Positions 38,702 through 42,853 of a stretch of 64,000 bases of DNA are shown piece after piece. The notes below the pieces were generated by a model. The model was not told the DNA's origin and did no database searches. It was given only the letters and a program-made list of their open reading frames with translations. Source of the DNA: Candidatus Tectimicrobiota bacterium (GTDB lineage: Bacteria; JACPUC01); NCBI GenBank assembly GCA_016192455.1, contig JACPUC010000006.1:1-64000 (forward strand), written 5' to 3'. How positions within the stretch are numbered: position 1 is the stretch's first letter; each line of letters starts with the position of its first letter. A program made the position numbers and the translations under genes.

Positions 38702-41700
38702 TCACAACAGCTCCTGCTGCGTTGGCGCGCGCTGCCCCGCCAGCCGCGTGATGTGCGGCCAGGCGATGACGAGGGCGTTGTAGTCGAGGGCGGCGTCGGC
38801 CCACTTCTTGCGCTCGCAGATGACGTAGAGGCGGTAGGCGAGGTCGCGGGCCGCCTCGTGGTGCGGGCGGGACGCGCGCGCTCCAAGCTGCCGCAGGAGG
38901 TTGGCCGCCTGCTCCTCGCTGCCCTGCTCGTCGAGGAGGCGGCGGATGAGGTAGTGCGTCACCTCCCAGACGGTGAGGCGCGCGTCGGCGCCGGGGTCCC
39001 AGTCGGCGCGCAGCTCCTGGCGCCGCAGCAGGCGCGCCTTGCCGGCCTTGGCCCGCAGGATGCCCGCCTCCACCAGCCCCTGCACGGAGGTGTTCTTCGC
39101 CTTCGAGAGCGTCTCGGCGACGCCGTACGGCCCCTCCTCCATGCTGAACTGCTCGAACCAAGCGAGCGCCCAGCGCGTGTCGGCGTCGAACTCCGCCTCC
39201 TGCTCCGCCAGCACCTCGTCGAGGGTCTGGTTGATGAGGGCCAGGGCGGTGCGCACACGCATCGGCGAGCCGTCGGCCTCGAGCACCCGGGCGTAGCGCG
39301 AGAAGACCGCCATGCCCGGCCCGATGGCCGCCTGCGCCAGGTCCACCGGCGCGATGCTCCCCTTCTGGAGGTTCTTCAGCGCCTCCGGCAGCTCCCGCGT
39401 CAGGGCGTTGAGGAAATCCCGCCGGCTTGTCATTGGCGCCTCGGCGGGCCGCGGCCGGCAGACGAGGACAATCGACGAGGCGAGGGCGTTGGTGCCGAGG
39501 CCAACAGAACGGTTGACCATCTCGCTATGCATGGGCCATGTGCCGGTGATGCTGAACTGAGCCTTCAGCAACCCTTCGAGCATTGTCTCCCAGCCGGTGG
39601 AGGCGAGCAAGGAGACGATATCGCCGTTGCTGTCCTTCGAGGCGCTGGATTCAGCTTGTTTGAAGGCGTAGAAGAGCGTCATGGGAACATCAGGACACTG
39701 ACTCTGGCGCATGAGGTCAAACGCCTTGCCAAGGCCGGTCTCGAAGAAGGCCTGCGCCTTCCGCTTGCTGCCGTCGAAGCGGTACGGCGTGGCGACAAGC
39801 TCCTGGGCCTTGGGGACGAGGAGGGTGCTGAAGAGGTCGGGGAAAACCTCGCCGATGGCGCGCCGCAGCCAGACGTAGAAGAAGTCCGAGAGGTCGGCGT
39901 AGCCGATGTTGTCGTAGTAAGGGGGGTCAGTCGTAATAAGTGGTGCACCGCTGCTATTGATGGCTGAGGTGGAGTCAAGCTGGATCGATTCAGCTTGAGG
40001 TGAATTATTAATGCTGGGGATGGCTTCCCAGACCCAATCAACACACGCAATCCAATTCCCCGTGGAACTGCTGAAGGGATTACATTCTGCATAATCCCAA
40101 ACCATCGGGATTGCTTGCCGTGCGAACGTATGACTCATCGTCTCCCTAGAGGTGTGCCAACTGCATATCCCCGTCCAATAATCCGCACCCTTATCCACCG
40201 CAAACGCCAAATACGTTGCCACGGCGTCGGCGTAGGCTTGGGGGCCGGCGCCGCCTTGATGGAGGGGGAGATCGGGGAGCGCGGGCGTCCCGCCCGCTTC
40301 CTTCCCCCCTTCCTTTGGCGCGGTCTCGGCGCCCGCCTCGTGCCCCTCTTCCTTGCGGCGCGCGCCGGAAGGCGCTTCTTCGTTCACAGCGGGCGGGACG
40401 CCCGCGCCCCTTCGAGATTCTCGTGCGGGCGGGACGCCCGCGCTCCCACGCGGCGCCGCGCTGCTGAACGGCCACGCGCGCGGGGCCGCGCACAGGCCTG
40501 CGTTCACGGGGTTCTCCTCGACGTAGGCGCAAACGGCGGCGAAGTGCCGTTCATCGCGGATGTAGCGGTCGAAGTACTCCTCCTGCCAGAAAGCGCCGCC
40601 GCGGCCGAGGATGCGGTTCGCCTCCTTGGCGGTGAACGATTTCCAGGCGTGGAGGATGTCCGACAAGCGCCAGCCCGGCAGGGGCGAGAGGCAGGCATGC
40701 ACGTGGTTCGGCATCACCACCCAGGCGTGCAGGCGGTAGCGCTCGCCGTCGAAGTGCAGCAGGGCCTCCTCGACGATGGCGGCGACGCGGCGATCGGCCA
40801 GCCAGGCGGCGCCTTCGCCGCGGTCGAGATGGGTGTCGATGCGGCGGCCGCGCTCGGTTGCGGCCTCGGAGGGGGGGAGGCTGCGCAGCTCTTCCCGCCA
40901 GGCATCGAGGAGGCGCGCCGGGAGAGCGTCGGCGAGGCGGAAGGTGATGGACTGGACAATCTCGCCGCCGTCGAAGTGCGGCAGGTAGCCGCGCGAATGC
41001 CAGCCGCGAGGCTCGCGGAGCGCGGGCGGCCCGCCCGCATTACTATCCTTCTCTCCTTCGCGCGCCGGGGTGTCGGTGGCGCGTGGGGCGGGCGGGACGG
41101 CGGAGGACGGGTCTCGGAAGGGGGATGCGGGCGGGACGCCCACGCTCCCTTGGGCGCTCCGTTCGCTCAATGCGGGCGGGACGCCCGCGCTCCTCCTACA
41201 AGCATCACGATACACCCGCTGCCGCGCCTCCCCCACCAACTCACAAAACGTCGTCAACGCCACAAGCTGGCGGGGGGTGAAGAGATCGCGGTAAGTCTTA
41301 AGACCATAGAGGGTGCACCAGATAGCCCGAGGATCAAACGGCAGTTCTTCATCCGGCGCCCAGGGCGGTGTAGCGGTTCTAGCAACCTCAATCTGATCCT
41401 CGCTTGCCGGCAAGTAGACGCGACCACGCTGGCCTTCGGCAACGATTGCCATAAGCTGCGCGCCCATGCGCTTGGCTGTGCCCTCATCCTTGATGTGCTG
41501 GTCATCCGCTTTCTGGTCGCATGCAAGGCATCGAAACTTAGCCCCGCGTCCTATCTTCGGCGGCTCCGGCGGCGTCCCCTTCCCCGTTTTCACCTCGAAC
41601 CGGAGCGCGGGCGTCCCGCCCGCATCGAAGGTTTCCTTTTCGCTTTTGCCTTCCACCACCGGTTGCACCCACGCCTCCTTGCCGCTCTTGGTGGAGAGGG

Positions 41701-42853: not shown

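Follow-up and report, generated by a model that had tools for sequence, protein, structure and literature searches.

How does a transposase domain that has neither a start nor a stop codon of its own come to lie inside the reading frame of a DNA methylase? This question is raised by a 64,000-nucleotide stretch of contig JACPUC010000006.1 from Candidatus Tectimicrobiota bacterium (the window, in what follows), in which a single frame joins parts of two Hma defence genes, HmaA and HmaB, and holds a REP-associated tyrosine transposase (RAYT) together with repetitive extragenic palindromes (REPs). Our answer is that REP-flanked RAYTs probably nest in frame in host genes as a general habit of their group. 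Within this wider habit, undescribed as far as we found, the copy in the window is a worn instance. The Hma genes were named by PADLOC profiles, HmaA for the start of the frame and HmaB for the remainder. The frame is built as follows:

38702..42898, minus strand: open frame of 1,398 codons, HmaA N-terminus fused to HmaB, with the RAYT and REPs inside (TTG at 42898, ATG at 42853, stop at 38702)
42413..42853, minus strand: N-terminal fragment of HmaA, an SNF2 helicase (profile positions 1-151 of 1176)
41192..42430, minus strand: first HmaB block, with DPFCGGG (profile 90-454)
40271..41191, minus strand: 921-nt insert (307 codons) that separates the HmaB blocks at profile positions 454 and 461, from the profile match and alignment
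40460..40996, minus strand: RAYT domain with the HUH motif (MPNHVH) and YVEENP; no ATG within 25 codons upstream
38723..40270, minus strand: second HmaB block, with DPPYYDN (profile 461-958)

The initial annotation had described a 1,383-codon methylase frame, interrupted by a RAYT with an HUH motif, in which the methylase resumes in frame and retains both catalytic motifs. These points were borne out: the frame has 1,383 codons from the ATG (1,398 from the TTG), both HmaB blocks share one reading frame, and the profile skips only from 454 to 461 across the insert. In the Pfam scan the RAYT matched Y1_Tnp at 9.3e-8; REP_Tyr_transpos gave 80.7 bits against a cut-off of 80 (second value 85.9), and NF047646 lay above its curated cut-off. 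The assignment of the whole frame to a DUF1156 methylase was correct for the HmaB part but not for the first ~150 codons, which are HmaA and stand where the DUF1156 domain is gone. Lacking its own start and stop, the window RAYT is a read-through frame. Antisense frames on the plus strand over HmaB are also open (38441-39967, 508 codons; 40115-42283, 722 codons). The length of the frame is weak evidence because at this GC content long antisense frames are open too, and we rejected it as a stand-alone proof. Judged from sequence, the decisive evidence for nesting is the in-frame HmaB homology on either side of the RAYT.

We then searched with a profile, A1, built from eight RAYTs. It gave 114 matches in 60 of the 392 genomes from the phylum of the planctomycetotal locus L018, and 106 matches in 60 of the 291 genomes from the phylum of the Chthonomonadales locus L053. 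Neighbourhoods were examined for most long-frame matches, 20 middle-length ones and 20 short-frame controls. At least 39 of the 220 matches in these 683 genomes were nested in sense and in frame, with sequence of the same host gene on both sides (at least 27 of 114 and at least 12 of 106, respectively). The figure is a lower bound because most short-frame matches were outside the examined set; three of the 39 were seeds of A1. The hosts were HmaB, other DUF1156 methylases, PglX, type IIG restriction-methylases, a type III methylase and DinG, together with AlaRS, ValRS, LeuRS, PurH, CarB, MetH, salicylyl-CoA hydroxylase, a paralogue resembling FabZ, a GH38-like enzyme and an alcohol dehydrogenase. 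The GH38-like, alcohol dehydrogenase and some further names were assigned by eye; PurH, AlaRS, ValRS, LeuRS, CarB, MetH, FabZ, salicylyl-CoA hydroxylase and the defence genes were profile matches for the scanned members. Beyond the 220, RAYTs were nested in an HKD-SNF2 helicase (L101) and in a second DUF1156 methylase in Entotheonella (L106).

Some hosts were hit repeatedly at one place. The FabZ-like paralogue carried the RAYT at a single site (CFQTGAMLLS / KPVLTRILEAKFRGM) in nine genomes (L211-L213, L258-L261, L263 and L265). A tenth case, L262, has masked bases on one side of the RAYT and was left out of the nested count. The GH38-like enzyme held the RAYT at the same place in L200 and L202, and G528, one of those two genomes, also has a CarB-RAYT. 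Other candidates were set aside: L158, L207 and L215 were chance frames; in L154, L159 and L197 the RAYT is read into the following frame; and L209 (PrmC) and L210 (TetR) were fusions at a gene end. Contig ends on one side removed L165, L203 and L270 from the count, and a frame kept on one side only removed L264 and L214.

HmaB was surveyed in 80 listed loci, drawn from a larger number of matches in genome contigs, and five of these had a RAYT nested in sense and in frame; a six-frame scan (at least 80 codons) of the same 80 found none out of frame or antisense. The loop occupied in the window also holds a RAYT in L018, L043 (Entotheonella), L049 (Chlorobium) and L053. L019 (Zipacnadia) is reciprocal to the window: its RAYT lies at the other HmaB loop (site 1), where the window has a REP doublet, and a REP doublet lies at the window's RAYT loop. 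In the HmaB tree, L053 grouped with the RAYT-free L054 (100), L049 with the RAYT-free L088 (99) and L018 with the RAYT-free L022 (90). The window, whose genome is the sole member of its phylum among those compared, stood apart. Since such empty-site sisters are interspersed, independent gains or precise losses are needed. The comparison of L053 with L054 (80.7% identity across 962 aa) placed the insert between KRDYL and DDIPLRDGG. At HmaB site 2, 16 hairpins were found in the five RAYT-bearing frames versus none in 49 RAYT-free frames with a stem of 7; the search was rerun at this value, as stems of at least 9 gave only two hairpins in the 54 frames, a threshold too strict to inform. In L018 the HmaB frame (5175-9626) contains two tandem arrays, of SRAGCPAPVAE-like and GKDVGQDGQPPLG-like units; the second adjoins the RAYT, and REP-like peptides are amplified there in frame. 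At L029:9699-11078, a 460-codon RAYT frame with REP-like peptides and an additional C-terminal part lies between HmaB and HmaC.

Profile searches showed that the RAYT-bearing copy was the sole copy over the cut-off in seven of seven genomes: alaS in G184, G132 and G111, valS in G383 and G367, leuS in G389 and purH in G230. The profile matches split at the RAYT at 652-655/654 (alaS, three genomes), 520/522 (leuS), 365/377-378 (valS) and 184/207 (purH). Alignment with RAYT-free AlaRS indicated that the insert stands in place of a variable loop directly ahead of ELCGGTHV. The alaS of G184 (L160) has a frameshift near profile position 506 besides the RAYT, and no second alaS was found there; for this reason the frame is unbroken in six of the seven hosts.

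Several features suggest that the nested RAYTs are still live elements, the retention of their own motifs among them. HUH was intact in 38 of 39 nested copies (L196 reads MPSHVH), and Y158, which we take from TnpA-REP to be the catalytic tyrosine, was invariant across the eight A1 rows. Of 43 nested RAYTs, 10 had an ATG in the 25 codons upstream, as against 12 of 20 standalone ones. In the RAYT tree, where bootstrap support was not settled, nested copies were scattered among free ones, and the AlaRS, FabZ and CarB copies were intermixed with others; for AlaRS and FabZ, this mixing could also stem from gene conversion among copies instead of repeated insertion. The row closest to the L018 RAYT was a second RAYT from the L018 genome (100/100). 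Row L148 carries the label free in this tree but is the FabZ-nested copy of G311.

AlphaFold was applied to residues 200-1398 of the window protein with 54 sequences (mean pLDDT 75.2, pTM 0.63). The model predicted a folded RAYT (pLDDT mostly 80-90) between disordered stretches at 378-442 and 598-670, which match the parts encoded by REPs; most of the HmaB core was predicted with confidence. The best Foldseek match was 4er8, TnpA-REP with a REP hairpin (E 3e-3, TM 0.56 by target), and the sequence match to 4er8 was 2.9e-10.

At least ten REP units had been claimed in the frame, each without a stop in any frame. Allowing three mismatches at most, we found that the REP core matched 11 times, and the consensus was stop-free in all six frames. 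Six lie with the RAYT in the 921-nt insert, the flanking ones including inverted copies, and five lie elsewhere in the frame:

42295..42316, plus strand: REP in frame (GARASCP)
41983..42034, unstranded: inverted REP doublet in frame (GARASRP, AGETPAL), at HmaB site 1, the RAYT site of L019
41602..41623, minus strand: REP in frame (AGGTPAL)
41017..41193, unstranded: three REPs 5' of the RAYT (41172, 41127, 41017)
40276..40446, unstranded: three REPs 3' of the RAYT (40425, 40389, 40276)
38863..38884, plus strand: in-frame REP close to the C-terminal end of HmaB (GARASRP)
38463..38673, unstranded: four REPs in the gap that separates the HmaB frame from the HmaC remnant

All 11 fall in three of the six readings (GARAS, AGVPP and AGGTP types), a distribution that hints at selection against arginine-rich readings, though the 11 are non-independent copies and were grouped post hoc. 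On the left side of nested RAYTs, odd-length hairpins were distributed 5/5/23 across the three phases, a bias that may be just common descent of the element. Across the 4.46-Mb genome the core had 38 matches at the same tolerance, versus two for a reversed control pattern, and 16 of the 38 are concentrated in the window's 4 kb. By position, without a homology test, most of the other 22 are at frame ends, intergenic or in no clear frame, and two (C9:122723 and C23:291744) are within long frames with high GC at third codon positions. The initial annotation had suggested a REP family that tolerates, or is selected for, insertion into coding DNA and spreads within genes as short peptides. This suggestion fits other genomes better than this one. 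REP/RAYT units recur in coding genes elsewhere, single-copy essential ones included, and hairpins reach 3.41 per kb near nested RAYTs, ten times the 0.33 per kb of the remaining host-frame sequence; here, REPs are scarce, most of those elsewhere in the genome have the positions just given, and the locus is partly deleted. In-frame read-through does recur, but spread as short peptides understates it because a whole transposase is nested.

We propose that HmaB received a REP-flanked RAYT, an IS200-like single-strand transposase, in one of its variable loops, in sense and in frame. Such an element lacks a stop codon and mostly an ATG too; its sole or chief route to expression would therefore be as part of the host protein, in which it would form an internal domain held by flexible linkers that the REPs encode. 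A REP would then have a double role, as a DNA hairpin recognised by the transposase and as a peptide linker harmless in most phases, and the host gene would provide promoter, start and protection from loss. For the RAYT group, the proposed habit would be nesting in defence and housekeeping genes, in the same loops across genomes, with both motif sets kept. The architecture, the frame, the recurrence, the sisters with empty sites, the single-copy hosts and the retained motifs are observed here; that host and RAYT are made as one polypeptide, that the RAYT is active and that loops are chosen is what we infer.

Several points weigh against such a habit. Insertions that break a gene are purged, so the existence of in-frame survivors is by itself no proof of an in-frame mechanism. 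The window copy itself sits in a damaged locus, 181 of the 220 RAYTs of the group are standalone or without demonstrated nesting, and most genomes are metagenome-assembled genomes (MAGs) whose completeness is not stated. Although pN was far below pS in 13 of 13 RAYT pairs, dS is saturated in most of them. An argument for essentiality from FabZ was withdrawn: all ten genomes with a nested FabZ-like gene have an intact fabZ over the cut-off elsewhere, and these ten genes, being paralogues, are uninformative on essentiality and carry no weight there.

For the window copy taken by itself, it is rather likely that we see a decaying gene, a REP-rich element in an already lost Hma locus whose openness comes from GC content and stop-free REPs. 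Alignment with relatives placed the HmaA-HmaB junction near residue 157-163. HmaA is cut after 151 residues, with ~1,000 residues lost, and the HmaA start replaces the N-terminal ~90 residues of HmaB, DUF1156 domain included. Downstream, HmaC is internally deleted:

37750..38424, minus strand: HmaC remnant, in which the Swt1-like HEPN N-terminus (1-163) is followed in frame by the final ~60 residues, with one REP inside (38223-38244)

It is without ~890 internal residues, full-length relatives having ~1,110. An intact HmaA/HmaB/HmaC set is thus absent, and most simply this is a partly deleted Hma locus; the window copy is therefore probably non-working as a defence system. The 722- and 508-codon antisense frames agree with decay, but every join in the locus preserves frame and the conserved HmaB motifs remain. 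Decay also fails to explain RAYTs nested beside long HmaA frames (L019, L043 and L053) or in single-copy synthetases. The same genome has a second Hma relic, a 145-codon HmaB C-terminal fragment (L253, G000:C27:87820-88239), and a second, standalone RAYT at C4:31157.

The loop shared by the HmaB-RAYTs of the window, L018, L043, L049 and L053, and the widespread but patchy occurrence of Hma (PMC8565338), could point to one ancient RAYT-methylase fusion, inherited, passed between phyla and domesticated as a nuclease domain of a defence protein. This is unlikely: the HmaB tree, with its interspersed RAYT-free sisters, led us to reject a single inherited fusion, the L018 RAYT is kin to one of its own genome, L019 uses another loop, and synthetases and PurH are among the hosts. 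It is no more likely that the insert is removed after translation by intein-like splicing, or bypassed by the ribosome at REP hairpins, to leave the mature host uninterrupted. Single-copy synthetases do tolerate the insert and inverted REPs bracket it, but Pfam scans of the window frame, L106, L121 and L101 found no splicing (Hint) domain, the RAYT codons stay open with slow protein-level change, and in AlaRS removal is not needed because the site is a variable loop. An assembly artefact joining RAYT contigs to host genes through repeats is very improbable; REPs are repeats and most records are MAGs, but the same loops recur in many assemblies in exact frame, with L043 and L106 on one 4.29-Mb chromosome and L208 on a 5.23-Mb contig.

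Nesting of whole RAYTs in frame has parallels in known systems. Nested RAYTs share with RAYT/TnpA-REP elements (REPtrons, REPINs) the HUH and Tyr motifs, REP hairpins at either flank and the matches to NF047646 and 4er8; unlike those, which stand free between REPs, they lie in a host frame without their own stop. Like inteins, they would be mobile elements translated within essential proteins at recurrent sites, but no splicing domain was found in those scanned and they occupy variable loops, whereas inteins lie at conserved active sites. Rickettsia palindromic elements (RPEs) are non-autonomous and are not known to carry a transposase. They, too, are selfish palindromic sequences that lie in frame within functional proteins (cited in PMC3733652). 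The same paper also reports in-frame intragenic REPs in Opitutus terrae and others, including DNA repair and tRNA synthetase genes; PMC6006769 reports REPs inside tnpA-REP genes, and "unexpectedly long proteins" excluded as fusions or annotation errors. As in the 11 window REPs, palindromes are there read through in frame in conserved genes, but the REP peptides inserted there have about 20 to 82 residues, while here an entire transposase is nested. The order and profiles of HmaA, HmaB and HmaC match the Hma/DUF499-centred BREX-related systems (source PMC8565338), from which the window differs by the loss of most of HmaA and HmaC and by the RAYT in HmaB. PMC12839542 treats Hma as BREX-related and contains neither "RAYT" nor "transposase". 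In-frame REPs are thus already known, and a whole nested RAYT is apparently undescribed as far as found: we found no report in the open literature, which leaves most subscription papers and all preprints outside.

RAYT nesting looks like a way of life and not a freak insertion, because it is recurrent in many unrelated bacteria, even in indispensable genes. With some reserve, we favour a translationally nested transposon: an autonomous HUH element without its own start and stop, which would move as REP-RAYT-REP into permissive loops, in sense and in frame, and would shelter in single-copy genes (tRNA synthetases, PurH) and horizontally mobile defence genes, which would keep it safe, expressed and on the move; it would live much as an intein does, but with no splicing. 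If this is true, the reuse of one loop in AlaRS, CarB, the FabZ-like gene and HmaB would reflect target choice plus survival. REPs would gain a second role as coding linkers, many odd long annotations would be explained, and AlaRS, ValRS, LeuRS and HmaB would offer natural domain-insertion sites that are directly testable. RAYTs living within essential proteins without splicing would give a new view of RAYT persistence, and would bear on why single-copy, apparently immobile RAYTs persist.
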